A stretch of DNA of 64,000 nucleotides from the NCBI RefSeq assembly GCF_000975135.1, contig NZ_BBRF01000001.1, positions 1,800,380-1,864,379 on the forward strand, read 5' to 3'. Positions 26,087 through 30,668 of this stretch are shown here, one piece after another. Source of the stretch: Demequina aurantiaca. GTDB taxonomy: Bacteria > Actinomycetota > Actinomycetes > Actinomycetales > Demequinaceae. Made by a program: the position numbers and the translations under genes. Under the pieces are notes generated by a model that was not told the origin of the DNA, searched no databases, and was given only the letters and a program-made list of their open reading frames with translations. Each line of letters starts with the position of its first letter. Within the stretch, counting starts at the first letter, position 1.

Positions 26087-26509
26087 ATGTCAGGTGAAGT
26101 TGATCTGCGCGTGCTACTCGCGACCATGCATCCGCGGCTGGACCCCTCCGTCTACGTCTGGGTAAGCGTCGGCTCGGCCACCGCGGATAGGGAAGTTGTC
26201 GCTCACGCAGTCGTGACTGTTCGTGAGGACGAGGGGCTGACCATGGTCGTCGAACGCTCCGTCGCCGATGCGCACGGCCTGGCATACGAGTTTCCGAGCG
26301 CGAGGATCACGCTCGAGGCTCACTCGGCGCTCGAGGCCGTGGGCCTGACCGCGGCCTTCGCCGCGGCGCTCGGCGAGGTCGGCATCAGCGCGAACGTCGT
26401 CGCGGGATATCACCATGACCACATCTTTGTGCCGCTTGACAGAGCCGACGATGCGATGACGGCACTTCGAGAGCTGTCAACGGCATCGGCGGAGGGGCAC
26501 CGCACCTGA
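26087..26509 (+). CDS. ACT domain protein (ACT_3/ACT_7 type)
   Basis: This 140-residue protein resembles the small two-lobed ACT proteins formerly DUF2241. The N-terminal lobe begins DLRVLLATMHPRLDPSVYVWVSV. The C-terminal ACT-like lobe holds HSALEAVGLTAAFAAALGEVGISANVVAGYHHDHIFVP. ACT domains bind amino acids, and this family is usually a stand-alone sensor or effector of unknown partner. No amino-acid pathway gene is adjacent. Confidence 0.85.
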   Translation: MSGEVDLRVLLATMHPRLDPSVYVWVSVGSATADREVVAHAVVTVREDEGLTMVVERSVADAHGLAYEFPSARITLEAHSALEAVGLTAAFAAALGEVGISANVVAGYHHDHIFVPLDRADDAMTALRELSTASAEGHRT

Positions 26510-26570
26510 TTAAGGGGCTGACTTGCGACGGAGCGAGCTTCCCGGATGGTGAGCATTTGCCTTAAACGAG

Positions 26571-26596
26571 GGAGTTTTGGTTGATTTCACAACTCC
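26571..26596 (+). other. Inverted repeat upstream of the micro-ORF
   Basis: GGAGTT (26571-26576) and AACTCC (26591-26596) can form an outer CGAG...CTCG-supported stem. It lies in the 284-base gap 26510-26793, which holds no convincing conventional gene but several structures. Confidence 0.35.
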
Positions 26597-26658
26597 GACA
26601 CCTCGTTGCGGGGCACTCCGATGGTGGTAAACCGCCGCTATGTGGGGCATTATGAAAG

Positions 26659-26680
26659 CGAGCCTCCAACCGGAGGCTCG
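26659..26680 (+). other. Strong RNA hairpin upstream of the micro-ORF
   Basis: CGAGCCTCC-AACC-GGAGGCTCG is a perfect 9-bp stem with a 4-base loop, 113 nt before the micro-ORF start. No T-run follows directly. With its neighbours it may be part of a structured leader; no GEMM (c-di-GMP) riboswitch consensus is seen. Confidence 0.55.
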
Positions 26681-26793
26681 TATTACCCCGGGGGCAATGA
26701 CCGGCCAATGAAGTCCTTTAGTGTCCTGGCGCTCTCAGCGCGTCTGGATGGGCTCGATCTTCGTCTCCATTCCTCTATATCAAGGAGAGCAAG

Positions 26794-26904
26794 ATGAACA
26801 AGTGGACCATCTTTCAGAACAGCAAGGTAGTGCGCGTGACCGCAAGTGCGGGCACCATCGTGGCTGTTGCAGCAATCGTCGGCGCTGGGTGGAAGTGGAG
26901 TTGA
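26794..26904 (+). CDS. Micro-ORF, 36-residue hydrophobic peptide
   Basis: ATG 26794 is preceded by AAGGAG at 7 bases, an unusually good site for this genome. The peptide begins MNKWTIFQNSKVVRVTASAG and ends GAGWKWS. A single hydrophobic helix of about 14-17 residues (19-32) follows a short cationic amphipathic start, and tryptophans sit at both ends. This looks like a small membrane peptide. Its TGA overlaps TTG 26901, a possible start of the GGDEF-EAL gene. A very strong hairpin follows 14 bases after the stop. I do not recognise a family. Confidence 0.6.
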   Translation: MNKWTIFQNSKVVRVTASAGTIVAVAAIVGAGWKWS

Positions 26905-28961
26905 TTCCACCTAGGAACACGGGCGGTGCCAGGAAGAAATTCTTGGCACCGCCCGTGCTCCTTGCTGCCTACTTGGCGGCAATCTGTACGCTCGGGTTTG
27001 TTGCATTAATTTATGTTCTGACGTCCACGCAGTGGACCGCGATCGCCGATGAACTTTTGTGGTGGCCCGTGATGTTCCTCGCGGTCGCGGCAATTGCGGG
27101 CGAGGTTAAGCCGCTTGTGGTGACGTCGCGTTCAGAAGAACGAACACTCTCCACGTCTGCACCATTCGTGCTGGCGCTGATCGTGGTTGCTGGCGTCGGG
27201 GTCGCAATTGTGGTCCAGATCATCGCGAGCCTGTCTGACGATGTTCTCCACCGCCGACAGCTGAAGAAGTCGCTTTTCAATACCGCGCAGTACGCATTGA
27301 GCGTGCTCAGCGGTGCGGCCACTTATTCGTGGCTGGCAGGAGTCCCTATTTTCGGGTCGCCGTTGGGCGTCGAGCCTGGTGACATCCTCCCGCTCATGGT
27401 CGGCGGCATCGTGATGGTCGCGGTGAACTGGGTCCTGGTTGCGGTCGTCGTGACACTGGCGTCGGGGCAGACGCTGTGGACCGTGTTGCGCGGCGATTTC
27501 CGCGAGTTTCTTGTCACCAACGCGGTCCTCCTTTGCGTCGGAGGAATCGCGGCGATCGTGACCGGAGATGGAGTCGGCGCGCTTGTGTTGCTCGCTGCGC
27601 CAGTTCTCGCGGCGCACCTCTTCGCCGCAGCGTCCGCAAGGCACGCTCACGACGCTACTCACGACGCGCTGACGGGTCTAGGCAATCGTGGCCAGGCCAA
27701 CTACGAGCTTGGCGGGGCTCTCCAAAACGCGCGCCAGTCGGATTCCGACGGGCCGGGTTTTGTATTCCTCGACCTCGACCACTTTAAGGACTTTAACGAC
27801 GCCTTGGGTCACCCCGTGGGCGACAGGATTCTGTGCAAAGTCGCAGAACGACTCGTCGATGCCGCCCCAGAGAACTCCTCCGTGCACCGCCTCGGCGGCG
27901 ACGAATTCGCTGTGGTGGTTCGTGGTGGCGTTGACGAATCAGAGCAGGTAGCGCGCGACCTTGTTGCCTCGCTTGACGCCCCTATCAAGGTCGATGACCT
28001 GGAGCTGCTCGTCCGCGTAAGCGCCGGAGTAGCGGCGGCGCCCATGCATGGCACCGATGTCGAGACGCTCATGAAGAACTCCGACATCGCCCTGTACCGC
28101 GCCAAGGTGGAGCGCGACCAGATCAGCGTGTACTCGCCCGAATTTGACGTGAACAGCGCAGAACGACTGCAGCTCCTCGTTGACCTCCGCACGGCCCTGG
28201 ATTCGCGCCAGCTCGAGGTCGTCTACCAGCCTCAATTCAACCTCGCTGATCGCCGCATGGTGGGAGTCGAGGCCCTGGTGAGGTGGAACCATCCCACACG
28301 CGGCACGGTGTACCCAGATGAGTTCATTCCCCTGGCCGAGAGCTCGGGACTCATCTTCCCGCTGACCGCCTTTGTCCTCGACGAAGCCTTGGGCCAGCTG
28401 GCTCGGTGGCGTGCCTCCGGCCACTTCCTCCGGATGGCGGTCAACCTTTCCGCCCGCCACCTCTCCGACTTGGCGCTCCCGGACAGGGTTGCCGAAGTCG
28501 CCGAGCGGCACGGAGTCTCGTTGGGGTCCTTGGTCCTCGAAGTGACGGAGACGGGAATCCTGTCGGATCCTGTCCGTGCCGACCTCGTGATCCGCGCTTT
28601 GCGCGAGCGAGGGGTCGCAATTGCGATCGACGACTACGGCACAGGCAATGCCTCGCTCAGTTACCTCAAACGCCTGGAGATCGACGAGCTCAAGGTCGAC
28701 CGTTCCTTCGTCAGCAACATTGGCGACGATCACCAGGACCTCGTGATCGTGCGCTCGACAATTGCGCTGGCGCTAGCGCTCGGGCTGCGAGTCGTAGCGG
28801 AGGGCATCGAGGACGAGTCCACCGCGGTCGCCTTGCAGGAACTGGGCCGGGTGGTCGGCCAGGGATATCACTTGGGCCGCCCCACGACGCCGGATGTCAT
28901 TGAAGCCGTGCTCGACGCAGAGCGCCAGGCGTCCGCCTCGCACAAGACTGCGGGGTACTGA
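26901..28961 (+). CDS. Membrane GGDEF-EAL cyclic di-GMP protein
   Basis: This protein probably makes and/or degrades cyclic di-GMP. The N-terminus has about six to eight transmembrane helices (20-235). The GGDEF domain has HRLGGDEF (GGDEF at 332-336) and the EAL domain has VGVEALVRW (EAL at 457-459). Supporting EAL-domain residues DDYGTG, KVDRSFV, VVAEGIE and QGYHLGRP are intact, so phosphodiesterase activity is plausible. Start is uncertain: TTG 26901 overlaps the micro-ORF stop and gives a positive-inside N-terminus; TTG 26943, GTG 26955 or GTG 26889 are alternatives. A hairpin lies over this start region. DUF5317 follows. Confidence 0.88.
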   Translation: MIPPRNTGGARKKFLAPPVLLAAYLAAICTLGFVALIYVLTSTQWTAIADELLWWPVMFLAVAAIAGEVKPLVVTSRSEERTLSTSAPFVLALIVVAGVGVAIVVQIIASLSDDVLHRRQLKKSLFNTAQYALSVLSGAATYSWLAGVPIFGSPLGVEPGDILPLMVGGIVMVAVNWVLVAVVVTLASGQTLWTVLRGDFREFLVTNAVLLCVGGIAAIVTGDGVGALVLLAAPVLAAHLFAAASARHAHDATHDALTGLGNRGQANYELGGALQNARQSDSDGPGFVFLDLDHFKDFNDALGHPVGDRILCKVAERLVDAAPENSSVHRLGGDEFAVVVRGGVDESEQVARDLVASLDAPIKVDDLELLVRVSAGVAAAPMHGTDVETLMKNSDIALYRAKVERDQISVYSPEFDVNSAERLQLLVDLRTALDSRQLEVVYQPQFNLADRRMVGVEALVRWNHPTRGTVYPDEFIPLAESSGLIFPLTAFVLDEALGQLARWRASGHFLRMAVNLSARHLSDLALPDRVAEVAERHGVSLGSLVLEVTETGILSDPVRADLVIRALRERGVAIAIDDYGTGNASLSYLKRLEIDELKVDRSFVSNIGDDHQDLVIVRSTIALALALGLRVVAEGIEDESTAVALQELGRVVGQGYHLGRPTTPDVIEAVLDAERQASASHKTAGY
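26918..26957 (+). terminator. 18-bp hairpin after the micro-ORF
   Basis: The arms are 26918-26935 and 26940-26957, with 18 consecutive pairs (one G-U) and a GAAA loop. No T-run follows. It could terminate or stabilise the micro-ORF transcript, or sequester an AGGAAG site ahead of TTG 26943 in the GGDEF-EAL gene. Confidence 0.6.
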
Positions 28962-28963
28962 TA

Positions 28964-29527
28964 GTGCTCGTCGTCGCTCTCTGCGCGATCGCCGTGGCCT
29001 CACCACTGGTGGCGTTGCGCTGGCCCGCGGGCCTACTGATGCATCGGTGGCGCTGGCCGCTGTTGATTTGGGCCGTGCTGGCATTCCAGGTGGTGGTGCT
29101 CGAGGTGTCGATGCCCACGGGTCTCGCGGCAGTTCTCCACGTCCTGACGTACGTGGCCGCCGTCGGCTTTCTCTGGATGAACCGTCGCGTGGCCGGTGTC
29201 TGGATCGTCGCTGCGGGAGCGACGCTCAACGGGATCGTCATCGCGCTGAACGGCGGAACGTTGCCAGCCAGCGCATCGGCCGTCGCCTCAGCCGGGCTCG
29301 ACCCAGACGATGCCTTCGCAAATTCTGGAGTGGTCGACAATCCCGTCCTGCCGTGGCTTGGCGACGTCTTTGCCTGGCCGGCGCCCATGCCGCTTGCCAA
29401 CACGTTTAGCGTGGGGGACATGCTGATTGTGGCAGGGGTGTTTGTCGCAGCGTGGACTGGGACACGTCGCCTCGGCCAGGGCAGTGGCGCAACAACGGAC
29501 CAGGCCGACACGCCTCACCACGCTTGA
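28964..29527 (+). CDS. DUF5317 family membrane protein
   Basis: This 187-residue protein has four to five transmembrane helices. It shows the DUF5317 pattern ALNGGTLPAS, then NPVLPWLGDVFAWPAPMPLANTFSVGDMLI near 110-155, where the NGG-P and FSVGD elements are conserved. The GTG at 28964 begins 2 bases after the GGDEF-EAL stop, so co-transcription is likely. The family often neighbours cyclic di-GMP or HD-type signalling genes in actinobacteria and clostridia. Its function is unknown; a membrane partner of the upstream protein is inference. Confidence 0.85.
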   Translation: MLVVALCAIAVASPLVALRWPAGLLMHRWRWPLLIWAVLAFQVVVLEVSMPTGLAAVLHVLTYVAAVGFLWMNRRVAGVWIVAAGATLNGIVIALNGGTLPASASAVASAGLDPDDAFANSGVVDNPVLPWLGDVFAWPAPMPLANTFSVGDMLIVAGVFVAAWTGTRRLGQGSGATTDQADTPHHA

Positions 29528-29534
29528 CCGCGCA

Positions 29535-29550
29535 TCGAACACATGTTCGA
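29535..29550. promoter_or_regulatory. LexA (SOS) box
   Basis: TCGAAC-ACAT-GTTCGA is a perfect match to the actinobacterial/Gram-positive LexA palindrome (CGAACN4GTTCG core). It is 8 bases before the radical SAM gene start, so LexA would block its promoter until DNA damage. Confidence 0.8.
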
Positions 29551-29558
29551 ATGTGTGT

Positions 29559-30668
29559 ATGCGTTGGCAGACACAGGAACTTACGGCAGAACAAGCCGAT
29601 GCGCTGCCCGGATTGGCCAAACTGTCCAACCTGGTGCGGTCGGTGCAGACGCCCGGCTTCGAGGGCGTGACGTTCCACGAGGTCGTCGCCAAATCTGCAC
29701 TGAACAAAGTGGGCGCTGGTAGCGCGGTTCCGTTCACGTGGACCATCAACCCGTACCGCGGATGCAGCCATGCGTGCGTGTACTGCTTCGCCCGCACCAG
29801 TCACAAGTACCTGGAGTTGGATGCTGGGCAGGACTTCGACAGTCAGGTCATCGTCAAGGTCAACGTCGCAGACGTTCTCCAGCGTGAACTGGCGCGCACG
29901 TCCTGGAACCGCGAGCCCGTGGCGTTGGGAACCAACACCGACCCGTACCAACGCGCTGAAGGCAAGTACAAGCTCATGCCTGGCATTATTGCCGCGCTCG
30001 CGGACTCGGGAACGCCCTTCAGCATCCTGACCAAGGGCACGCTGCTACGCCGTGACCTGCCGTTGCTGACGGAGGCCGCCACGACCGTCGACGTGGATGT
30101 TGCGATGTCGATTGCGATTTTCGACGACGATCTGCAGAGGTCCGTGGAGCCCGGAACGCCCTCCACTGCGGCACGGCTGGCCACCGTCAAGGCGGCACGC
30201 GACGCTGGCCTCAACGTCTCGGTCTTCATGATGCCGGTGTTGCCGTTTCTCACTGATAGTGAGGAGCATCTGGATGGCGCGCTCGCGCGGATCAAGGCAG
30301 CCGGGGCGACTTCGGTGACCTACAGTGGGCTCCACCTGCGCCCAGGCGTGAAGGAGTGGTACGCGCAGTGGTTGGGGCGCGAGCGTCCCGAGGTGCTGCC
30401 GCGTTATCGCGAGATGTATGGCGATGACTCGTATGCCCCCAAGGAGTATCGGCGTTGGCTTGCGGCACGCATCAAGCCGCTGATCGCCAAGCACGGGCTG
30501 GAGCGGGCAGAGACCGATGCGAACACCGGGGGAGCGGCATCATCTGCTCCTCGTAGGGCAGAGTTTCGCGACGCGAACGGCGAGCTCCCGGCCCGCGCGT
30601 CCGGCGCCCGCGGTGCGGCGGCCTCGAATAACCTCGCCGAGCGCGAGCTTGCCGCGACGCTGTTCTAG
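29559..30668 (+). CDS. Radical SAM protein, Rv2578c/SplB-like
   Basis: This 369-residue iron-sulfur enzyme has the cluster motif GCSHACVYCFA (Cys69, Cys73, Cys76), followed by GTNTDPYQRAEGKYKLM and SILTKGTLLRRDLPLL, typical of the Rv2578c family related to spore photoproduct lyase. A Pro/Ala-rich tail (from 325) is variable. The ATG at 29559 is chosen because conservation begins at MRWQTQ and the LexA box lies just upstream; longer in-frame starts run through the box. Mycobacterial relatives are, to my recollection, also LexA-controlled. The substrate is unknown. Confidence 0.88.
   Translation: MRWQTQELTAEQADALPGLAKLSNLVRSVQTPGFEGVTFHEVVAKSALNKVGAGSAVPFTWTINPYRGCSHACVYCFARTSHKYLELDAGQDFDSQVIVKVNVADVLQRELARTSWNREPVALGTNTDPYQRAEGKYKLMPGIIAALADSGTPFSILTKGTLLRRDLPLLTEAATTVDVDVAMSIAIFDDDLQRSVEPGTPSTAARLATVKAARDAGLNVSVFMMPVLPFLTDSEEHLDGALARIKAAGATSVTYSGLHLRPGVKEWYAQWLGRERPEVLPRYREMYGDDSYAPKEYRRWLAARIKPLIAKHGLERAETDANTGGAASSAPRRAEFRDANGELPARASGARGAAASNNLAERELAATLF

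Follow-up and report, generated by a model that had tools for sequence, protein, structure and literature searches.

CydX, KdpF, and AcrZ are small single-transmembrane (TM) subunits or regulators (PMC4325964, PMC7267776). They are about 30–50 residues long, contain one hydrophobic helix, and work with a larger membrane protein. The genes for CydX and KdpF are located in the operon of their partner, and the ECF S-components CbiM and NikM likewise function alongside a small membrane protein (CbiN or NikN). To our knowledge, no such small subunit has been described for a cyclic di-GMP (c-di-GMP) enzyme, and we know of no input signal for most membrane GGDEF-EAL proteins, those with MASE9 domains (PF20972) in particular. 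In gene pairs coupled by termination-reinitiation (TeRe), the stop codon of one gene overlaps the start of the next, usually by 1 or 4 nt (PMC6728339, PMC10666635), and subunits of heteromeric complexes are over-represented among pairs whose spacing ranges from an 8-nt overlap to a 10-nt gap (PMC10666635). Gram-positive peptide pheromone precursors are encoded by short ORFs near a presumed receptor, with a conserved C-terminal segment and extra copies.

The locus described here lies in a window of 64 kb (the whole stretch of DNA that was analysed) from a Demequina-type genome of 2.57 Mb (Actinomycetes), and shares some features with each of these systems. Its micropeptide resembles CydX, KdpF, and AcrZ in length and in its one hydrophobic helix, but shares no sequence family with them (Pfam, NCBIfam), and its partner would be a c-di-GMP enzyme. 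Like TeRe-coupled genes, the micro-ORF and the enzyme gene overlap at stop and start; unlike them, the overlap is 10 nt rather than 1 or 4 nt, and a conserved, covarying hairpin follows just past the stop. The enzyme resembles MASE9 GGDEF-EAL proteins, for which no peptide partner was noted or found in the literature search. Its N-domain, as modeled, has the fold of CbiM and NikM, but is fused to GGDEF-EAL instead of serving a transporter, and a kinship of the micropeptide with CbiN is only conjectural. The short ORF near a presumed receptor, the conserved C-terminal segment, and the extra copies are also seen for the micropeptide, which differs from pheromone precursors in that it matches no family, has Pro after the putative cut in some relatives, and would have a c-di-GMP enzyme as its receptor. 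Small TM partners and reinitiation are already known kinds, whereas the libraries and literature searched contained neither the peptide family, nor its link to a MASE9 c-di-GMP enzyme, nor the covarying structures past the stop and in the leader.

Organization of the locus

An ACT-domain gene (26087–26509) is followed by the leader, the 36-codon ORF, the 18-bp hairpin, the GGDEF-EAL gene, and a DUF5317 gene. The features are as follows.

26634–26793, + strand: structured 5' leader of the micropeptide–enzyme mRNA (model CM R1, 39/47 Demequinaceae genomes)
26659–26680, + strand: leader hairpin 1, 9 bp, loop AACC (exact inverted repeat; covariation over 28 leaders)
26690–26768, + strand: leader long-range helix, arms at about 26690–26699 and 26759–26768 (covariation over 28 leaders)
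26782–26787, + strand: Shine-Dalgarno (SD) sequence AAGGAG of the micro-ORF (similar in nearly all relatives)
26794–26904, + strand: micro-ORF, 36 aa, one predicted TM segment (39/47 family genomes; dN/dS; invariant residues)
26895–28961, + strand: MASE9-GGDEF-EAL gene, 688 aa, predicted start GTG 26895 (frame in 39/42 loci; Pfam domains; MASE9)
26918–26957, + strand: post-stop hairpin, 18 bp, loop GAAA, codons 8–21 of the enzyme gene (41/42 loci; covariation)
28964–29527, + strand: gene of a DUF5317 membrane protein, by position in the same operon (Pfam PF17248, E 6.6e-27)

Conservation of the micropeptide

The micro-ORF with a good ribosome site, which had been predicted from the sequence of the window, runs from ATG 26794 to TGA 26904 and encodes the 36-residue peptide MNKWTIFQNSKVVRVTASAGTIVAVAAIVGAGWKWS, with AAGGAG 6 nt upstream of its start. 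Of the 47 Demequinaceae genomes searched, 39 contain the peptide (E below 1e-4); weak matches in a 113-aa frame (residues 9–36) were treated as unrelated. An SD sequence and an ATG or GTG start were seen in essentially all copies, the SD being purine-rich in nearly all relatives. M1, K3, W4, T21, A31, G32, K34, and W35 were invariant in 33 sequences, and the single hydrophobic segment has a mean KD value of 1.88 over 19 residues. In close pairs, dN/dS was about 0.06–0.5, most of the variation fell at codon position 3, and the other two frames exhibited no comparable signal of selection. This conservation and selection rule out a chance ORF, and the substitution pattern indicates that purifying selection maintains the micropeptide as a protein.

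No family matching the micropeptide was found in Pfam, NCBIfam, or PHROGs, and the literature searches returned no report of such a peptide. Since there is no Pfam or NCBIfam model and the members are shorter than most annotation length cut-offs, the family is probably unannotated in many genomes.

Co-occurrence of the micropeptide and the enzyme

Of the sampled genomes of the genus, the 32 that encode a strong enzyme orthologue all carry the micropeptide, and the micropeptide was absent from all five sampled genomes without the orthologue. The micropeptide thus has the characteristics by which CydX-like proteins are recognized: a short ORF, one predicted TM helix, co-encoding, and co-inheritance (32/32, 0/5). 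The search for homologous micro-ORFs before GGDEF-EAL genes, which the original prediction had proposed, found relatives across actinomycetes upstream of the same enzyme family. In a scan of named genomes, peptide relatives were detected in Cellulomonas, Actinotalea, and Kineosporia; wherever the contig extended far enough, each lay directly 5' of a GGDEF-EAL gene of this kind. The class-wide search added several more families, often with two tandem peptides ending in G-x-K-W. In Cellulomonadaceae, Kineosporiaceae, and other actinomycetes, such relatives stand in front of genes of the same MASE9-GGDEF-EAL family; the phylum-wide search gave few additional matches outside the class. In some lineages (L161, L162, L164), the peptide lies 100–300 nt upstream of the enzyme, with neither overlap nor hairpin.

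On a tree of 74 enzyme N-domains, the presence or absence of the peptide required 4 changes, as compared to 20.4 in shuffles, and the tandem enzyme paralogues of Demequina without a peptide formed one group. A wider motif scan of the 800 nt upstream of enzymes labeled peptide-less found such an ORF in 0 of 24. These distributions indicate that the micropeptide tracks one enzyme subfamily. Taken with the conservation of the peptide, the gene is very probably that of a real, so far unnamed partner or signal of the c-di-GMP enzyme.

Tandem GGDEF-EAL paralogues, none with a peptide of its own, were seen beside the peptide-linked copy in four genomes (G005, G007, G042, and G013; loci L061, L062, L063, and L078, respectively).

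Start site of the enzyme gene

The overlap of the micro-ORF stop with an enzyme start, as originally predicted, is real; the start, however, is most likely not TTG 26901 but GTG 26895, within the last codons of the peptide, giving a 10-nt overlap with the stop at 26904. This GTG (GTG −10) lies inside the AAG-TGG codons of K34-W35 and shares the reading frame of the enzyme in 39 of 42 loci; in five loci it is the sole ATG, GTG, or TTG start before the first TM helix. Therefore, termination-reinitiation is likely to be the mode by which the enzyme is initiated. The AAG codon of K34 is uninformative as support for the GTG start, because every Lys codon is AAG.

In the three remaining loci (G016, G039, and G043), the frame of GTG −10 is not kept owing to small indels, and two of these have another start inside the hairpin; the exceptions reflect either assembly errors or the use of another start. 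For G043 (L117:3030–3110), no recognisable enzyme start was seen, and the sequence is one base off the GTG −10 frame, beside G and C homopolymers, an offset that is likely to be a sequencing error.

A fusion of peptide and enzyme by a −1 frameshift was also considered. The enzyme frame is indeed −1, but an in-frame TAA stands right before GTG −10 in the Y-K genomes, and inspection showed no slippery heptamer; this candidate was rejected.

Domains of the enzyme

The downstream gene matched PF00990 (GGDEF) and PF00563 (EAL) far above the cut-off, and the motifs GGDEF, EALVRW, IDDYGTG, and LKVDRSF were read in its sequence. Both output domains of this membrane enzyme, which would make or degrade the signal molecule c-di-GMP, seem to retain their catalytic motifs, and therefore the direction of the effect on c-di-GMP is not predictable. 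For the N-domain of the window, the MASE9 score was marginal (24.5 bits, cut-off 24.3) and fell below the cut-off, to 21.9, when the enzyme was read from TTG 26901; 25 of 29 N-domains matched MASE9 at E <= 0.01, with a best value of 2.8e-7.

The model of the N-domain (window 26895–27644, mean pLDDT 81) adopted the fold of ECF S-components, closest to NikM and CbiM, and superposed on NikM2 (4m5b) with a Z score of 14.4 and 3.5 Å over 188 residues at 13% identity. The small partner of CbiM and NikM would be a parallel to the micropeptide that is suggestive, no more. Enzymes with and without a linked peptide differ at 15 N-domain positions (for example, D at position 108 of the domain alignment), a difference confounded by phylogeny.

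RNA structures flanking the micro-ORF

The 18-bp stem with a GAAA loop, recognized in the original prediction, pairs 26918–26935 with 26940–26957, and no 62-nt stretch elsewhere on the + strand of the window folds as stably as its region. Of 42 loci, 41 retain the hairpin, with a mean z of −5.8, the exception being a genome with an array of micro-ORFs (G037, below). Over 38 aligned sequences, two-sided changes were observed at 17 of the 18 pairs, 88% of the cells pair, and the covariation score was 0.576, compared to 0.230 for shuffled and at most 0.173 for slid partners; here, as for the leader, the counts take related sequences as independent, and the slid-partner control retains this relatedness. 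In several, though not all, of the other lineages, a comparable hairpin stands after the last peptide.

The post-stop hairpin begins about 10–14 nt 3' of the micro-ORF stop, which would place it close to the front of a ribosome terminating there. The first 16 residues of the enzyme are predicted to be disordered, and thus leave coding room for the hairpin. The original prediction also proposed that this stem hides an AGGAAG ahead of an alternative start and acts as a switch. Such an arrangement (AGGAAG and TTG 26943) is present in the window, but the combination is not conserved: in relatives, in-frame ATG, GTG, or TTG codons within the hairpin are only sporadic. A hidden start of this kind was rejected, and the specific switch built on it is not supported.

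The perfect 9-bp leader hairpin, likewise predicted, is formed by CGAGCCTCC (26659–26667) and GGAGGCTCG (26672–26680), and covaries in relatives, with two-sided changes at all 11 modeled pairs in 28 leaders. In addition, the leader contains a long-range helix that the original prediction lacked, with two-sided changes at 9 of 12 modeled pairs in the same number of leaders; 8 of its 10 pairs form in the window sequence, and its 3' arm ends 13 nt before the SD sequence. The leader model CM R1 scored 82.8 bits in the window and matched 39 of 47 Demequinaceae genomes, 11 of them outside the training set, essentially once each and only at the peptide locus; these are the same 39 genomes that have the peptide. 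Peptide, post-stop hairpin, and leader hairpin are all conserved in relatives. The original prediction had named a lack of such conservation as grounds for refuting it, and the comparison did not refute it on these grounds. Covariation of the kind seen here indicates that the post-stop hairpin and the leader are selected as RNA structure, numbers that leave their role aside.

Neither the leader nor the hairpin of the window matched Rfam at the gathering score, and relaxed searches gave nothing credible at E <= 5 for the locus or E <= 1 for 20 related loci; no Rfam family matched the post-stop hairpin. A known riboswitch or other RNA family, such as the c-di-GMP riboswitch, was rejected on this basis. 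A dispersed riboswitch class was likewise rejected, the model matching essentially only the peptide locus, with one weak extra match in G013 (E 0.003).

Multiple and truncated copies

For the actinomycete G465, 11 peptide matches were obtained, with one linked enzyme copy. The orphan copies (L149:3095–4351, L151, L152) comprise three consecutive tandem peptide pairs, spaced by about 500 nt, plus further copies; the pairs have similar leaders and are followed by GC hairpins, with no such GGDEF-EAL enzyme adjacent. For the Demequina genome G037 (L064:5758–7150), about ten micro-ORFs stand in a row before the enzyme, each with its own SD and many with a small hairpin after the stop. Three are full-length, and about seven are cut to 22–23 aa, with the TM part deleted and MDKW...GWKWN kept. 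By eye, second, non-hydrophobic mini-ORFs of 19–20 aa ending in PGYKW(V) were also seen at L066:2698–2760 and after the first peptide of L069; their start GTG overlaps the stop of the first peptide (GTGA).

A purely cis-acting leader ORF would need neither the orphan copies, nor the array, nor the soluble mini-ORFs, and so the best reading of these arrangements is that the micropeptide acts in trans and that the product itself matters.

Proposed function of the micropeptide

The explanation that we moderately favor gives the peptide the role of a small TM subunit or regulator, which serves the MASE9-GGDEF-EAL protein and is synthesized together with it through translational coupling. An action of the peptide on the enzyme, as suggested in the original prediction, is also the best reading of the comparative data for a conserved membrane peptide tied to the enzyme gene. 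The micropeptide, with its single TM segment, would act in trans on the adjacent enzyme; ribosomes terminating at 26904 would re-initiate at GTG 26895, so that both products are made together; the post-stop hairpin, at the leading edge of the ribosome, may set the frequency of re-initiation or protect the peptide part of the mRNA; and the structured leader may control expression of the whole operon. The physical interaction, the membrane insertion, the reinitiation, and the roles of the hairpin and the leader are all inferred. Against this explanation are the three loci that are off the GTG frame, the overlap of 10 nt as opposed to the usual 1 or 4, and the peptides of L161, L162, and L164, which lack overlap and hairpin. 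The TM-less short forms in G037 and the second peptides of L066 and L069 also misfit a pure TM subunit.

These short forms also speak against the idea that the peptide is the precursor of a secreted signal, cut after V-x-A to release a C-terminal G-x-K-W-x peptide that the MASE9 domain senses, since they have no signal sequence. Most peptides have V/A-x-A|G at the putative signal peptidase I site, where the invariant A31 and G32 are preceded by small residues (VGA|GxKW), and conservation across lineages is highest in the C-terminal GxKW. The multi-copy orphan genes of G465, with one linked enzyme, recall pheromone genes, and the modeled S-component fold of the MASE9 domain is a ligand-binding one. 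However, four relatives (L065, L166, L161, and L163) have Pro right after the putative cut (GAPKKF, AAPGKW), which is hard for signal peptidase I, and the N-terminal KW is conserved too; we consider this origin of a signal unlikely. Still less probable is that translation of the micro-ORF controls initiation of the enzyme in cis and the peptide product is unimportant. The conserved overlap, the covarying hairpin, and the covarying leader would be expected of such an ORF, but not the amino-acid conservation, the orphan peptide genes that no enzyme gene follows, or the retention of the peptide where overlap or hairpin is missing. A small hydrophobic toxin or bacteriocin-like product, in the operon by chance, seems highly improbable: the peptide is short and hydrophobic, with basic and aromatic ends, and occurs in tandem pairs and arrays, but it is strictly linked to one c-di-GMP enzyme subfamily and lost together with the enzyme, and no antitoxin or immunity gene was recognised beside the copies examined.

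For the hairpin alone, a role as a partial transcription terminator or an mRNA-stability element, by which peptide would be more abundant than enzyme, is conceivable though doubtful, and is compatible with the subunit or regulator explanation. A very stable GC hairpin directly follows the stop, and hairpins also follow the orphan peptide genes and the short array copies. Conversely, there is no U-tract in Demequina, and the hairpin lies among the first enzyme codons with constant spacing to the stop, a placement for which a terminator has no need. No T-run was seen after the stem in the relatives inspected, as an intrinsic terminator would have, and terminators without U remain compatible with this pattern.

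The G-x-K-W micropeptides of actinomycetes might be dedicated ligands or subunits of MASE9-GGDEF-EAL receptors that directly set c-di-GMP, sometimes from multi-copy orphan genes. If true, this would be peptide-to-c-di-GMP signalling of an undescribed kind. The micropeptide, which tracks one enzyme subfamily over much of the Actinomycetes, is a direct, testable candidate for what the MASE9 sensor domain sees, and the covarying hairpin just beyond the stop, between two genes that overlap, provides a clean test case for RNA structure tuning termination-reinitiation.

Downstream genes

Slightly downstream of the DUF5317 gene, an ORF resembling the Rv2578c/SplB-like radical SAM proteins (window 29427–30668) was recognized by eye only, with no evidence that it belongs to the peptide–enzyme system. 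In four other loci (L087, L113, L116, and L118), the next ORF 3' of the enzyme looks, by eye, similar to DUF5317.
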